From assembly GCF_019603315.1 (NCBI RefSeq), contig NZ_CP080649.1, forward strand, positions 1 to 64,000: a stretch of 64,000 bases of DNA, read 5' to 3'. Positions within the stretch are counted from its first letter, which is position 1; each line of letters starts with the position of its first letter. Of this stretch, positions 46,320 through 54,666 are shown piece by piece. The notes beneath the pieces were generated by a model that was not told the DNA's origin, searched no databases, and saw only the letters and a program-made list of their open reading frames with translations. The stretch is from Ruficoccus sp. ZRK36. GTDB lineage: Bacteria; Verrucomicrobiota; Verrucomicrobiia; Opitutales; Cerasicoccaceae. The position numbers were made by a program, and so were the translations under genes.

Positions 46320-46469
46320 TAATGAGAGCATCAATATCTAACGCCTGTAGCGTCAAGAGACTTCCTTCTCCCGCCAAAAGCATACATATGAGTATCTAGT
46401 CCATGAGGCTCAACCTTTGAGATTTTGCTTGTCGCATGGCTTCATCAGGATGGATATAACCTGTATTCC

Positions 46470-48050
46470 ATGTTTCGAACTCTGCTATTGTCAGTTGCTT
46501 TCGCCGTTGTGGTGGCGGGGCCGCTGCTGAATCTGGGCCACTACTGGAACCACAACCCGCTGTACGGCTTTGGGTGGTTCGTGCTCGTACTGTCGGGAGT
46601 ACTGGTCCTGCAGAGAATGGATCAACTGCCCAATATTCGCCCCGCCCGGAGCCGCCTGCCGGGCCTGATCGTCGTCCTCATGCTGGTACTGATGATCCCG
46701 CTGCGGGTGGTACAGGTCGGGAACCCCGACTGGCGCGTGCTCGATACGCTCTACATGCTCGTGACGGTCTGCGTCCTGCTGCTGATGACGGGGGTATTTT
46801 TCGGCTGGCGCTGGGCACGCATTCTGGCCTTTCCCATTCTGTTTCTCCTGGTAGGGCTGCCCTGGCCCGTAAAGCTGGAAAACGCCGTCACCCTCCACTC
46901 TCTGCTAAGTGTAGGGCAAACAGCCCAGACCCTCCTCGGTTGGGCAGGCTATCAGGTGCAGGCAAACGGCTACGAGATTCAGACCGCTTACGGGGTCTCC
47001 CACCTGGCAGAAGCCTGTAGCGGCATCCGGTCGTTTCACCTCGCACTGGTGGGCGGACTGTTTCTGGGGGCACTGTTCAGGCTCTCCCTGAAGCGACGTG
47101 CCATCCTGCTGATCCTGTGTATACTCACGGCCTACCTCGTGAATGTCGCACGCGTCGTCGCACTGGTCGCCGTCATGGTGCGGTACCAGTCACAAGGGGC
47201 GATGGACGACTGGCACGACGTCATCGGCTGGAGCACACAATTGGGCTTCATCGTGCTGATGTTCATTGAGGCCAAGTTGCTGAGCATCTTTATCTGGGAA
47301 CCACGACGCACCCGGGTCGACGGCGAGTCCGGCGTCATCCGCAAGGCTCTACGCGAAGCCCCACGCGGCCATGTCTTTCTCCTGCTGATTATTATCTTAC
47401 TGACCGTCGGGACTCATGTCCTGGCGGAGGGCTGGTACCGCTGGCACGAGCAACGTGCACCGGCGATGACCTACACCACGGGCTGGAAGCTCGTCGATGA
47501 GCTTCCCGACCCCAACGTACGCGAGCAGGAAATACCGCTACTCGTGCGCGAGCAGCTCCCGTACGAAGAAGCGCGCATGTACACCTGGCTCGACCCGAAC
47601 GGCGCGCTCTGGCAGCTCATGTGGCTGCGTTTCGATGGGAGCACGTACTCGGCCTTCGCGCACAACATCCACCAGCCGGAAACCTGCCTGCCCTCCCAGA
47701 ACTTTGCGCTTAAGGAAATCTGCCCGCCGCTGGAGCTGAATATCGACGGGCAGACCTTTACCTGGCAGCATCAGGTCTACGAGCGCGAGGGCATCGTCCT
47801 GCAGTTGTTCTTTAACAAGACGGCGACCGGTCCGCTACTGGTGGACGGGAGTGAACGCGACTGGAGCGCCATGGGGCGACTCCATCAGGCCGCTCAGGGG
47901 CTGCGTATCATTGATGCCCAGGTCATGCACTTGTCGGTCTTCGCACCCTACCCTCCCGAGACCGCCAAGGTGCTGGCTCAGGGGTATCTGAGCCGGTTTA
48001 TCCAAGATGCCGTCCTGCCTGCCGAGGCAAGAGAGTCCGCCCGCCCCTGA
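46470..48050 (+). CDS. Exosortase fused to an EpsI-like domain
   Basis: Membrane transpeptidase of the exosortase family, which processes PEP-CTERM-type surface proteins, often with exopolysaccharide loci. The 526-residue protein has about eight hydrophobic segments. The catalytic triad is visible: C183 in LAEACSGIRSFHLAL, R228 in VNVARVVAL and H249 in DDWHDVIGWS. After a further helix (about 325-345) a soluble domain resembles EpsI/DUF3485, with NIHQPETCLPSQNFAL. Start chosen at MFRTLLLSVAF. No PEP-CTERM substrate is encoded nearby; the target genes are presumably elsewhere. Confidence 0.88.
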   Translation: MFRTLLLSVAFAVVVAGPLLNLGHYWNHNPLYGFGWFVLVLSGVLVLQRMDQLPNIRPARSRLPGLIVVLMLVLMIPLRVVQVGNPDWRVLDTLYMLVTVCVLLLMTGVFFGWRWARILAFPILFLLVGLPWPVKLENAVTLHSLLSVGQTAQTLLGWAGYQVQANGYEIQTAYGVSHLAEACSGIRSFHLALVGGLFLGALFRLSLKRRAILLILCILTAYLVNVARVVALVAVMVRYQSQGAMDDWHDVIGWSTQLGFIVLMFIEAKLLSIFIWEPRRTRVDGESGVIRKALREAPRGHVFLLLIIILLTVGTHVLAEGWYRWHEQRAPAMTYTTGWKLVDELPDPNVREQEIPLLVREQLPYEEARMYTWLDPNGALWQLMWLRFDGSTYSAFAHNIHQPETCLPSQNFALKEICPPLELNIDGQTFTWQHQVYEREGIVLQLFFNKTATGPLLVDGSERDWSAMGRLHQAAQGLRIIDAQVMHLSVFAPYPPETAKVLAQGYLSRFIQDAVLPAEARESARP

Positions 48051-50771: not shown

Positions 50772-51155
50772 TCATTCACTCGGCGCTATCTGCTGGCTCT
50801 TGGCGTGGCGGATGTCCGTGATGAGATTGTAGAAGGCAATCGTGGCCGGGAAGAGGTTCGAGAGGATACCGACAGAGTCGTTTTTCCCCCAGATGAAATA
50901 GGAGATCAGGCAGAGGCTGCCGGTCAGGCTCATGTACCAGAAGAGCCGGGGCATGGTGACCTTTTTCGCCCGGTGTGTGGCGAAGACCTGAACCAGCCAG
51001 CGTGAGCCGAAGACCGCGACCCCGAAGTATCCGATGATCTTCCACATCGTAATCGTCAGCCCGAGGCTGGGCACTTCAAACAGCGGGCTATCCATAAAGC
51101 CCGTTTGCGCCGCGGCCGGATCGGCAGCAGCCAGAAAGTTCAAACATTCGATCAT
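50772..51155 (-). CDS. LAB_N-domain membrane protein (stand-alone lipid-A-disaccharide-synthase N-terminal domain)
   Basis: Small membrane protein, 127 residues. It has [62 protein letters not shown], in three spans, matching the LAB_N domain that precedes LpxB in some bacteria but occurs alone next to GT2 genes in others. No LpxB catalytic region follows. It overlaps the GT2 gene by 4 nt (ATGA) at the end of a four-gene operon. A flippase or sugar-lipid helper role is speculative. Confidence 0.85.
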
Positions 51156-51850
51156 GCCTGGTGCTCCTCTATCGAGGGATAATGGACCTTGCGCTTGAGC
51201 AACCAGCTCACGCCAATCAGGTCGTAAATGCCCCGCAGGGCACGGTCCCAGTTGGTGTACTTGGAGGTACCCTGGGCGCGGGGACGGTGGTTGACCGGGA
51301 CCTGCTCGATGCGCAGCCCGGCTTTTTTAAAGATAGCCGGCAGGTAGCGGTGCAGTCCGTTGAAAGGAACCAGGTACTGCACGGCTTCGCGGCGGAAAAT
51401 TTTCAGCGAGCAGCCGGTATCGCGCACACCGTCGTCCAGAAACATACGGCGGATGCGGTTGGCGATCTTCGAGGCCGCCCGACGGCTGAAGGTGTCCTTG
51501 CGCTTGGCCCGGTAGCCAACGACGACATCGGCCCCGTCCTTCATACCCTCCAGCAGCTTGGCGAAGTCGGCCGGATCGTTCTGCCCGTCACCGTCCATCA
51601 AGCCCACAATCGGGGCCCGTGCGGCCTGCAGGCCAGCGTACATGGCCGCGCTTTGGCCACGGTTGGCCGAGGGGCGCAGGCCCCGCACACCGGGCACGGA
51701 GCAGATTTTTTCCCAGGTCGAGTCGCTACTGCCGTCATCGACGGCGATGACTTCGGCCTCGGGCTGACAGCGCCGGACCTCTTCCAGCACGGCGACAACG
51801 CTTTCTTCTTCGTTGTAAAACGGGATAATAATGGAAAAGGACGGTTGCAT
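51152..51850 (-). CDS. GT2-family polyprenyl-phosphate glycosyltransferase (DPM1/ArnC-like)
   Basis: Cytoplasmic-face transferase that probably loads a sugar onto undecaprenyl phosphate. The protein is 232 residues. The GT-A core has [14 protein letters not shown] (about 5-18), [16 protein letters not shown], the metal-binding [12 protein letters not shown] (about 85-96) and the acceptor-side [14 protein letters not shown]. There is no C-terminal transmembrane pair, unlike ArnC. It lies between the PAP2 and LAB_N genes and overlaps the latter. Sugar identity is unknown. Confidence 0.88.
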
Positions 51851-51907
51851 GTCAGACGGTCGCTAAACCTGTGATCAAAGCCGCTGAGCGAACCCCACGC
51901 AAGACGA

Positions 51908-52693
51908 TTATGGGCGCGCGCCCTGGCGGCGTGATAACGAGCCAGATGCCGTTGCCGGACGACTGAAAACCGACCGCACAAAAGATCTGCTTCCCGTGCG
52001 CACACTGAGCGGTGGACGCCAACGGCCCAGACGCAGCAGGTAGTACAAGGCATAATCCACCAGATACACCATTCCCGCTGCCCAGACGACATCTGTCATA
52101 AAATGCGCCCCCTGCACCATCCGGGCCAACCCCATGATCGTACCATAAGCGAGGCCACAAAAGAGAAAGCCGTAAGCCAGACGACGTCGGGAAGCCAGAA
52201 ACACAAAATACGGGCTCATCAGGTAAAAGGCGATGGAGGAATGCCCCGAAGGAAATGAGTGCCCCTTTTGCTTCCCCGGCACCCAGACCTCCAGGTACTG
52301 CTGCTGACCTCCAAACTCCACGACTTCACGTGGACGAGGGCGTCCATAGTGGTCCTTGAAGATGAAGTTCACGACCACAGCTGGCCCGATCAGGGCCGCA
52401 AGAGACAGGAAGATCAGCGGGAGTCGCCAGGCACGCAGCGAGCTCCAGAAAAAGCCGCCCACAAATCCGAGAAACGCACCCGCCCCCAGCACAATACCCA
52501 GCGAGGGGCCAACCTCGTAGAGCATGCGCCACAGACGGCTCTCTCCAATCGGCCATGCGCCACCTCCGCCATAAAACGCCTGCGCCAATCGCATGTCCAC
52601 GGGCGTCAACCAGCTTATAAGGCTAACCACAGCCAGCACGGCGAGGGGTATCCAAATCATGGGCCGCGCGGGGCGGGAAGTCTGTTCACTCAT
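51908..52693 (-). CDS. PAP2-family membrane phosphatase (LpxE/undecaprenyl-pyrophosphatase-like)
   Basis: Integral membrane phosphatase of 261 residues with about six spans. The three PAP2 motifs are intact: KDHYGRPRP, PSGHSSIAFY and the SRX5HX3D-type ARMVQGAHFMTD. The insert EFGGQQQYLEVWVPGKQKGH between the first two motifs is typical of lipid A phosphatases. The ATG at 52693 overlaps the upstream GT39 stop (ATGA) and has GGAAG 5 nt ahead. Substrate (lipid A 1- or 4'-phosphate, or polyprenyl pyrophosphate) is not determined. Confidence 0.88.
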   Translation of the reverse strand: MSEQTSRPARPMIWIPLAVLAVVSLISWLTPVDMRLAQAFYGGGGAWPIGESRLWRMLYEVGPSLGIVLGAGAFLGFVGGFFWSSLRAWRLPLIFLSLAALIGPAVVVNFIFKDHYGRPRPREVVEFGGQQQYLEVWVPGKQKGHSFPSGHSSIAFYLMSPYFVFLASRRRLAYGFLFCGLAYGTIMGLARMVQGAHFMTDVVWAAGMVYLVDYALYYLLRLGRWRPPLSVRTGSRSFVRSVFSRPATASGSLSRRQGARP

Positions 52694-54228
52694 GGCTTCC
52701 ATTGCTTAAAATCGTTACCGGCAAAGGCTGTAAAGCCTTTGGCGTTTTTGGTTCCGGGCTGAACGGTAAAACCACCCAACCGATTGGTCTGGGCAAAAGC
52801 AGCATTGATGTCTTCGGGGAGTGTTTCAACCTCGCCCGGCCAGAGGATTAAGGCGTTCTTGCCGTGCGCGTCTTTAGGGCCACCCCAGATCTCGTACTGC
52901 GACTCGACACGCTCGTAGGGAAACCAGCGGTAGACACGCGGCTGTCCCGGCAGGTAAAAGGCCAGCTCAGCAGCCGTGTGCCGATGGCCACCTGCGATAA
53001 CGAGCTGTGGCTCGCCTCCGGGGAAATCCGCATAAAAGGCACCTGCCTCACGGCCGACCTCGCTCCACCCCTCCATCCGTCTACCGGGGTCCTTGGCCAT
53101 GCCTTCCCAGCCCCCGGCCTTGACCGCAAAGGGCATGGCGTATGCCACCACAGCCAGCGCCGCACCGAGGTAGACACCGGGCTTGAAGAGCCAGCGCAGG
53201 CGCTCGAAGCCTTTCTTAGGGGAGGCAAACGCCCCGACGCCCCAGGCTCCCAGCAGCGCGTATGCCGCCGGGAAATAAACGGCGGGCCAGTTGGGGTTAA
53301 TATTCTGGCGCAGGGACAGGATCAGAACTGCTACGAGCCCCGGCACCGAAAAGATCAGCAGATAGCGTTCACGTCGCCCACACGCACGCCACCCCAACAC
53401 TGCCGCCACAAGCAGGCCGAAGAGCAGGATCCCCGTAATGGGCGAACCGAGAGCAATCTGTACCAGCACGAACACCACTGGACGCAGCAAGACCTCTACC
53501 AGATCGGTTTTACCGGGCTGGAAGTGGTCCTCCATATGCACGAAGGTGATCCAGTCGTTCTGCCAGTTCCACCACAGGGGCGGCAGTAAAAACAGCAAGG
53601 CCACCAGAGCCACCAGCCAGGTGGCGGGATGCTTCAACAGACCACGCGCCTCTCGGTCTATGGCCAGAAAGATCAGCGCCATCACCCAGAACACCAGCAT
53701 CATCTGTTTACTGAGCACACCACAGCCCAAGAGCAGGATCAGGACCACTGCCCAGCCCGCACGGGGGGTCGCTTCGCCGGGCTCAGCCAGCCGCCAGAAA
53801 ACATAGAGGGCACCGCTCCAGCAGAACAACAGCGGCGCATCGATGGTGAAAAGCACGTTGAGGGCGACATTACCCAGTGAGGCCATCATCAGCGCCGCCG
53901 TCCAGAAGCCTGCACGCGCCCCATACATACGCCGGGCCAAGAGAAAAAGCCAGATACACGTCCCTGCTCCGAAGAGGATCGGAGCCAGCTTGATACCCGT
54001 CAGGGTACCGCCCCCGAGCCAGTTAAAGAAGCCCATCAGCCAGCCGATCATCGGCGGTTTGGAGAAGTAGCCCCAGTCGAGCTGGCGACCCCAGTCCCAG
54101 TAGTAGGCCTCGTCACCGACCAGGTCGTACGGGAAGACAGCCAGGTAGCCCACCCGCAGCAGCGTAACCACTCCGAGCAGTTGCCAGAAACGTCGGCTCC
54201 ATATGGCCTCTGTCTGATCCTCTATCAT
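52690..54228 (-). CDS. GT39-type (ArnT-like) integral membrane glycosyltransferase
   Basis: Polyprenyl-phosphate-sugar-dependent transferase of the GT-C fold, 512 residues with about 11 spans. The first periplasmic loop has the catalytic-type VGDEAYYWDWGRQLDWGYFSKPPMIGW (Asp-Glu about residues 39-40, then a YFSKPP turn), as in ArnT. The soluble C-terminal domain (about 390-512) is periplasmic. It is the first gene of the four-gene unit and would transfer the sugar loaded by the GT2 enzyme to lipid A or another envelope acceptor. Confidence 0.88.
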   Translation of the reverse strand: MIEDQTEAIWSRRFWQLLGVVTLLRVGYLAVFPYDLVGDEAYYWDWGRQLDWGYFSKPPMIGWLMGFFNWLGGGTLTGIKLAPILFGAGTCIWLFLLARRMYGARAGFWTAALMMASLGNVALNVLFTIDAPLLFCWSGALYVFWRLAEPGEATPRAGWAVVLILLLGCGVLSKQMMLVFWVMALIFLAIDREARGLLKHPATWLVALVALLFLLPPLWWNWQNDWITFVHMEDHFQPGKTDLVEVLLRPVVFVLVQIALGSPITGILLFGLLVAAVLGWRACGRRERYLLIFSVPGLVAVLILSLRQNINPNWPAVYFPAAYALLGAWGVGAFASPKKGFERLRWLFKPGVYLGAALAVVAYAMPFAVKAGGWEGMAKDPGRRMEGWSEVGREAGAFYADFPGGEPQLVIAGGHRHTAAELAFYLPGQPRVYRWFPYERVESQYEIWGGPKDAHGKNALILWPGEVETLPEDINAAFAQTNRLGGFTVQPGTKNAKGFTAFAGNDFKQWKP

Positions 54229-54315: not shown

Positions 54316-54666
54316 TCATGCAAGTTTGCTGCGAAAGATGAAATAGACTGCTCCCACCAGACAAAGTCCGGCCCACAAATAGTCCCACTTGAGAGGCTCC
54401 CGCATGTAGAAGACCGAAAAAGGCACGAAAACCGTCAGCGTAATAACCTCCTGGATGATCTTGAGCTGACCGACACTCAGGACCGTGTAGCCAATGCGAT
54501 TGGCGGGCACCTGAAAGAGATACTCAAACAAGGCAATGCCCCAACTCACGAGCGCCGCCACGATCCAGGGCCGGTTGTTCATTTCCTTCAGGTGAGCATA
54601 CCAGGCGAAGGTCATGAATATGTTACTGCAGCACAGCAGCAGGATCAGCTTGAGGACAGGGCTCAT
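54316..54666 (-). CDS. DUF486/DMT-type small membrane protein
   Basis: Four-helix membrane protein of 116 residues resembling DUF486 and small DMT transporters. MSPVLKLILLLCCSNIFMTFAWYAHLK opens it, with a central WGIALFEYLFQVPANRIGY and LKIIQEVITLTVFVPFSVFYMREPLKWDYLWAG, the family hallmark. It ends in a short FRSKLA tail. No function is established for the family. It is on the same strand as the lipid operon, 87 nt upstream of the GT39 start. Confidence 0.85.
   Translation of the reverse strand: MSPVLKLILLLCCSNIFMTFAWYAHLKEMNNRPWIVAALVSWGIALFEYLFQVPANRIGYTVLSVGQLKIIQEVITLTVFVPFSVFYMREPLKWDYLWAGLCLVGAVYFIFRSKLA

Follow-up and report, generated by a model that had tools for sequence, protein, structure and literature searches.

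A four-gene locus of Ruficoccus sp. ZRK36 that may join periplasmic glycosylation to lipid A dephosphorylation

Four minus-strand genes at positions 50772-54228 of the window, which is the first 64,000 nucleotides of contig NZ_CP080649.1 of Ruficoccus sp. ZRK36 (Verrucomicrobiota), are read in the order GT39, PAP2, GT2 and LAB_N. We read this locus as a lipid A phosphatase combined with a periplasmic glycosylation system of the three-component kind, and give this reading a probability of roughly 0.55. The polyprenyl-phosphate sugar synthase and the GT-C enzyme of a three-component system are both present, and for the third part, which would move the lipid-bound sugar across the membrane, LAB_N is a good candidate by its sequence. 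All four products exceed their Pfam cut-offs (for LAB_N, the gathering score of PF07578 is 26.7 bits).

52690..54228, minus strand: GT39 (GT-C) glycosyltransferase, here called type A, 512 amino acids (aa), PF13231 PMT_2 at 92.9 bits
51908..52702, minus strand: LpxF-like PAP2 phosphatase, here called type A, 264 aa, PF01569 at 82.9 bits
51152..51850, minus strand: GT2 polyprenyl-phosphate sugar synthase, ArnC/DPMS-like, 232 aa, PF00535 at 103.6 bits
50772..51155, minus strand: stand-alone LAB_N protein, 127 aa, PF07578 at 72.0 bits
52690..52693, minus strand: ATGA overlap of the GT39 stop with the second possible PAP2 start, seen in the sequence
51152..51155, minus strand: ATGA overlap of the GT2 stop with the LAB_N start, seen in the sequence

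An earlier note on this DNA had held that the two ATGA overlaps and one short gap tie these genes together, and all three are present; the gap is the 57 bases between PAP2 and GT2 (51851-51907). A PAP2 start at 52702 gives an overlap of 13 bases with GT39, and the alternative start, the ATG at 52693, gives a protein of 261 aa. The same note had proposed that GT2 loads a sugar onto polyprenyl phosphate, that GT39 transfers it in the periplasm and that PAP2 removes a lipid phosphate, and these family roles hold when the Pfam matches, the ArnC-like GT2, the ArnT fold of GT39 and the position of PAP2 beside LpxF are considered.

The GT2 matches ArnC (3e-25) and DPMS (7e-17) in the Protein Data Bank (PDB). 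On its sequence it is an ArnC-like polyprenyl-phosphate sugar synthase without a membrane tail, with no transmembrane (TM)-like stretch at its C terminus compared with two in the control, Escherichia coli ArnC. The tail is absent from all 128 GT2 frames that lie adjacent to LAB_N (duplicates counted), and none of the seven ArnC-like GT2 proteins at the fetched loci that carry two or three TM-like stretches is adjacent to LAB_N.

A PDB sequence search with GT39 gave no match at E 0.001. The best PDB fold matches of its AlphaFold model (pLDDT 88.8) are to ArnT (5ezm, E 1.9e-9; 5f15, E 3.1e-9), with protein O-mannosyltransferases behind (best E 7.4e-5). In a tree of 91 rows, which left out matches shorter than 250 aa, the window protein falls in a type A clade (100/98; motif DEAYYWDWGR..WGYFSKPP) that five alphaproteobacterial rows join at 100/99. 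The second GT39 of the genome, discussed below, belongs to a type B clade (100/100), which twelve alphaproteobacterial rows join at 98/92.

The PAP2 translation contains K-x6-RP, PSGH and R-x5-H-x3-D, which we take to be the PAP2 motif. A phylogeny of this protein had been suggested in the earlier note, and in a tree of 52 rows it stands with the LpxF references (L174 and L175, which pass the NCBI cut-off at 433 and 422 bits), split from E. coli PgpB, YbjG and LpxT at 99/97. A tree of 54 rows, from which the long-branched L139 was dropped and in which three fused PAP2 pairs were each divided into two rows, gives 99/99 for the split between the LpxF side with the window protein (28 rows) and the side that holds PgpB, YbjG, LpxT and the PAP2 of the second pair (26 rows). 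LpxF is also the best NCBIfam model for all six type A PAP2 proteins tested (87-117 bits), while undecaprenyl-diphosphatase models are best for all five tested of type B (28-42 bits), with LpxE as the second match in one; none of these proteins reaches a curated cut-off. A PDB search with PAP2 returned YodM/PgpB only, at 0.006, and the plasmid search for PAP2 gave no named LpxE or LpxF. Because PAP2 lies on the LpxF side and the GT39 model is best matched by ArnT, neither a grouping of PAP2 with undecaprenyl pyrophosphatases nor one of GT39 with protein O-mannosyltransferases was found, and the parallel that had been drawn with lipid A dephosphorylation plus glycosylation is upheld by the same two results.

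The gene order GT39-PAP2-GT2-LAB_N recurs, more than chance would explain, in three other Verrucomicrobiota loci (L057, L065 and L117) and in an alphaproteobacterium (L214), there with GT39 and PAP2 of the other type. The locus is nevertheless not the single fixed four-gene unit that had been described, as congeners have GT2-LAB_N either without GT39-PAP2 or at a distance from it. Three congeners were compared. Two of them (G001 and G002) have the order A24-SanA-DUF486-GT2-LAB_N-MemTrans, with GT2 and LAB_N 82-91% identical to those of the window, and neither the window GT39 (searched at E up to 1e-8) nor the window PAP2 (searched at E up to 1e-5) has a match anywhere in their genomes. In the third (G003), the two pairs lie on separate contigs, GT2-LAB_N beside MemTrans and GT39-PAP2 behind A24-SanA. 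The locus is thus made of two modules, GT2-LAB_N, which is conserved in the genus, and GT39-PAP2. Most simply, the window order would be ancestral, G001 and G002 would have lost GT39-PAP2, and the block would have been broken up in G003. Since GT2-LAB_N is kept where GT39-PAP2 was not detected, the donor module should have another customer.

A second, different GT39-PAP2 pair is found in the window genome at 2.57 Mb (L164:3458-6187), its genes facing each other. This GT39 is ArnT-like, scoring 96 bits for the NCBIfam ArnT model against 14 for the window GT39. It has strong matches in G002 and G003, and in G001, which lies outside that sample, a PMT_2 match covers almost the same part of the profile. 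Among 387 Verrucomicrobiota genomes, 27 have both LAB_N and a GT39 of this second type, 32 have LAB_N alone, 10 the GT39 alone and 318 neither (p 2.5e-17, kinship not corrected for); the threshold for ArnT-like GT39 (E <= 1e-30) was chosen after the list had been viewed and falls in a gap between 7.5e-39 and 2.8e-22.

Over the 29 LAB_N loci with typed PAP2 and GT39, in which related rows are not independent, type B PAP2 occurs with type B GT39 in 18 of 21 cases (p 5e-4). Where a single PAP2 type is present, type A GT39 accompanies type A PAP2 in 8/8 loci and type B PAP2 in 3/10 (p 0.004, with the same dependence among rows). Both PAP2 types occur in 11 of the 29, and clusters such as L053, L073 and L082 have two GT39 and two PAP2 genes around one GT2-LAB_N, which suggests one sugar donor for two pairs that each dephosphorylate and then glycosylate. 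In three alphaproteobacterial loci (L203:6949-8577, L204:6864-8492 and L208:1743-3371), a type B PAP2 (N-terminal) and a type A PAP2 (C-terminal) are fused in one frame behind GT2-LAB_N-GT39. Such a fusion points to a single substrate that bears a phosphate at each of two ends, as lipid A does. The gene for the 4'-kinase, lpxK, is present in all four genomes of the genus.

LAB_N has three TM helices (37-63, 70-91 and 94-123), and its AlphaFold model (pLDDT 89.2) has three long helices. Searched against the PDB, a profile built from 71 LAB_N proteins matched five SemiSWEET-type sequences and no others at E up to 1 (best 4qnc, 2.9e-5). Three of the five carry SemiSWEET names, and 4qnc and 4x5m are presumably SemiSWEETs. 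The SWEET family MtN3_slv is matched by 13 of the 71 members (best 3.5e-4). The PQ doublet is absent from LAB_N, in which Q56 is invariant and the proline is replaced.

The neighborhood of LAB_N was surveyed across several phyla in 170 loci that have 1.1 kb or more of upstream sequence: 59 from Verrucomicrobiota whole genomes, 69 named loci that were the best matches to the query and are therefore biased, 40 alphaproteobacterial loci hand-picked from 106 genomes with a match, and 2 from plasmids. Seven named copies of whole-genome loci were dropped from this count, in which the identical LAB_N proteins of L041/L042 and L148/L149 remain. GT2 lies directly upstream of LAB_N on the same strand in 118 of the 170 and within 4 kb in 124. 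A GT39 occurs within about 4 kb in 71 of these 124 (whole-genome 27, named 11, alphaproteobacterial 31, plasmid 2) and a PAP2 in 32 (14, 8, 10 and 0, respectively), and Paracoccus plasmids carry LAB_N-GT39-GT2-epimerase operons (L167:4986-8944 and L168:4989-8597). All 30 genomes tested in which GT2 is not directly upstream of LAB_N (24 Verrucomicrobiota and 6 alphaproteobacterial) have a GT2 homolog, nearly always elsewhere, and a tail check on 30 GT2 loci, seven of them from LAB_N-negative genomes, found no TM tail in any. The suggestion that LAB_N is the flippase or a partner of GT2 is strengthened by the SemiSWEET kinship and by its frequent place beside a tail-less GT2, and LAB_N is still a candidate. 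The LAB_N family also has a match in an archaeal control genome, that of Methanocaldococcus jannaschii, so proteins of this kind are perhaps not confined to organisms that make lipid A.

From the families, clades, gene order, pairing, profile kinship and lpxK described above, we infer a scheme of substrate, positions, flipping and donor sharing as follows. On the cytoplasmic side of the inner membrane, GT2 would transfer a sugar from a nucleotide sugar to polyprenyl phosphate. LAB_N, as a SemiSWEET-type three-helix protein and probably a dimer, would bring this lipid-linked sugar over to the periplasm or make it usable there, in the manner of MPDU1 with dolichol-phosphate sugars. The LpxF-type PAP2 would take a phosphate off lipid A, most likely the 4'-phosphate, and GT39, with its ArnT fold, would place the sugar on lipid A, most likely at the freed hydroxyl. 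The second, unlinked pair at 2.57 Mb would probably use the same donor at a second site, perhaps the 1-position. A broader proposal, which we put forward tentatively and with the odds somewhat against it, is that LAB_N derives from SemiSWEETs and flips polyprenyl-phosphate monosaccharides, as a bacterial counterpart of MPDU1 that works with the tail-less GT2 enzymes of several phyla, and that GT2-LAB_N feeds two pairs which rebuild both ends of lipid A.

One of the closest known parallels is found in rhizobia, where RgtE/RgtF/LpxE and RgtD/LpxF likewise combine a GT2 synthase, a GT39 and a lipid A phosphatase of the PAP2 family, with genes that often cluster (PMC5644692, PMC7663294; statements on these and the papers below refer to the sections available). 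In M. loti, rgtE, rgtF and lpxE are clustered (PMC5644692), and in Oligotropha, lpxE, lpxF, rgtD, rgtE and rgtF are clustered and the lipid A carries two galacturonic acids (PMC7663294). The rhizobial systems use two phosphatase/transferase pairs for the two lipid A ends, by analogy with what we propose. Their sugar is galacturonic acid. The locus described here differs from them in lying in Verrucomicrobiota, in the distance of its type A GT39 and PAP2 from the curated models, and in having LAB_N next to GT2, a protein that the available sections of PMC5644692 and PMC7663294 do not mention. The E. coli ArnC-ArnT-ArnE/F system, which puts Ara4N on lipid A, likewise has an ArnC-like GT2 and an ArnT-fold GT39. 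However, the arn operon lacks PAP2 and LAB_N, its ArnC has the TM tail that the window GT2 lacks, and it is the ArnE/ArnF pair that carries the flippase annotation. Three-component systems (GtrA/GtrB/Gtr and kin) consist of the same kinds of parts, a donor synthase, a transporter and a GT-C enzyme (PMC11127046).

The transporters proposed for such systems in the available sections of that paper are of the GtrA, SMR or MATE types, whereas LAB_N is of the SemiSWEET/PQ-loop type; a SemiSWEET-type flippase would thus be a transporter type outside those named there. According to the same 2024 paper (PMC11127046), flippase activity had yet to be demonstrated directly for the transporters under discussion there. 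MPDU1 belongs to the PQ-loop family and is needed for all known mammalian dolichol-phosphate-monosaccharide transferases (Saudek 2012, PMC3281891). The LAB_N profile finds SemiSWEETs, and LAB_N keeps the glutamine of the PQ motif but not the proline; unlike that of SemiSWEETs, its substrate would be a lipid-linked rather than a free sugar. A literature search returned no paper tying LAB_N to a glycosyltransferase or flippase and, in the sections available, nothing on topic that joined SemiSWEET and undecaprenyl. How polyprenyl- and dolichol-phosphate monosaccharides cross the membrane is a long-standing open question. A small, widespread relative of transporters that is often tied by gene order to tail-less synthases would make it testable in simple bacteria and would also be relevant to MPDU1, a human disease gene. 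The scheme also predicts, in a form open to test, what lipid A should look like in Verrucomicrobiota that have these genes.

A number of results weigh against this interpretation. The window proteins score far below the curated NCBIfam cut-offs: GT39 has 14.4 bits for ArnT (NF009784, cut-off 567), GT2 has 95.4 for ArnC (NF007986, cut-off 529) and PAP2 has 92.5 for LpxF, its best model (NF045633, cut-off 400). The association of type A PAP2 with type A GT39 over the 29 loci is not significant (12/19, p 0.13). A Foldseek search with the LAB_N model placed SWEETs at the top at nonsignificant E values of 0.7-1.4, and VIA-align placed cystinosin at rank 37 with a Z score of 6.4, within noise, its rows being common helical bundles; as the fold searches were not significant, it is the sequence profiles that carry the SemiSWEET kinship. 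No GT2 match was found in 43 of the 141 LAB_N loci of the first survey. LAB_N was not detected in the ten of 387 genomes that have only the ArnT-like (type B) GT39, yet GT2 is present in these genomes (confirmed as tail-less in 7/10, the other three frames being 249-254 aa), and the control genome of Caulobacter vibrioides gave no LAB_N match. Homologs of rgtD, rgtE, rgtF and lpxE have been reported in C. vibrioides (PMC7663294). Given this genome and the ten with type B GT39, LAB_N is not the only solution.

The best surviving alternative, which we consider possible but doubtful, is that LAB_N anchors and stabilizes the tail-less GT2 in the membrane and that another protein flips the donor. 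DPM2 and DPM3 anchor and stabilize the soluble DPM1 in this way. Such a role would fit the usual side-by-side position of the two genes and the absence of the C-terminal TM pair of ArnC from all 128 LAB_N-adjacent GT2 frames. However, in two loci (L065:3344-5002 and L117:3956-5605) an LpxF-side PAP2 and GT2 are fused in one frame, so that GT2 is already tied to the membrane, and LAB_N still follows directly, which speaks against a mere anchor. The kinship of LAB_N is moreover to transporters, and tail-less GT2 also occurs in genomes without LAB_N or with LAB_N at a distance.

It is less likely that the acceptor is something other than lipid A, with GT39 glycosylating a protein or another surface glycan and PAP2 recycling the polyprenyl phosphate carrier. 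The PAP2-GT2 fusion could also mean carrier recycling, G001 and G002 keep GT2-LAB_N without this GT39, and the ArnT score of the window GT39 is low; the type A GT39 of another locus (L010) scores almost equally low for ArnT (23.5 bits) and for protein O-mannosyltransferase (22.7 bits). Against this stand the tree position of PAP2, which groups with LpxF and not with PgpB, YbjG or LpxT, the fold of GT39, which is nearest ArnT, and the presence of LpxK, all of which favor lipid A as the acceptor.

The remaining alternative assigns the flippase role to a small membrane protein encoded upstream of GT39.

54316..54666, minus strand: DUF486 (DMT_6) small membrane protein, PF04342 at 163.5 bits

It is a neighbor at the level of the genus, and its DMT superfamily also holds ArnE and ArnF. 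A gap of 87 bases separates its gene from GT39, which follows on the same strand; in G001 and G002, where the gene is 91% identical, it directly precedes GT2. We regard this role as very improbable. In the survey that found LAB_N in 141 loci, a profile seeded with the protein matched the window, L007, L008 and L076 (which duplicates L007) and nothing else, and the gene is absent at the GT39-PAP2 place of G003. With matches this limited, DUF486 was rejected as a conserved partner.

The other same-strand genes upstream of GT39 encode SanA (DUF218) and a prepilin peptidase (A24), and the downstream neighbor of LAB_N is a convergent gene for a membrane transport protein (MemTrans). Promoter- and terminator-like sites were no more frequent within the stretch than expected by chance. 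Elsewhere in the window genome, at about 1.40 Mb and some 15 kb from lpxK, a TM-tailed ArnC-like GT2 lies beside two large proteins that match PMT_2 (L156:5022-9586), in what looks like a separate donor system. On the plus strand of the window, at 46425-48050, an exosortase of 541 aa (PF09721, 133 bits; domain residues 25-285) has a long part behind its domain.

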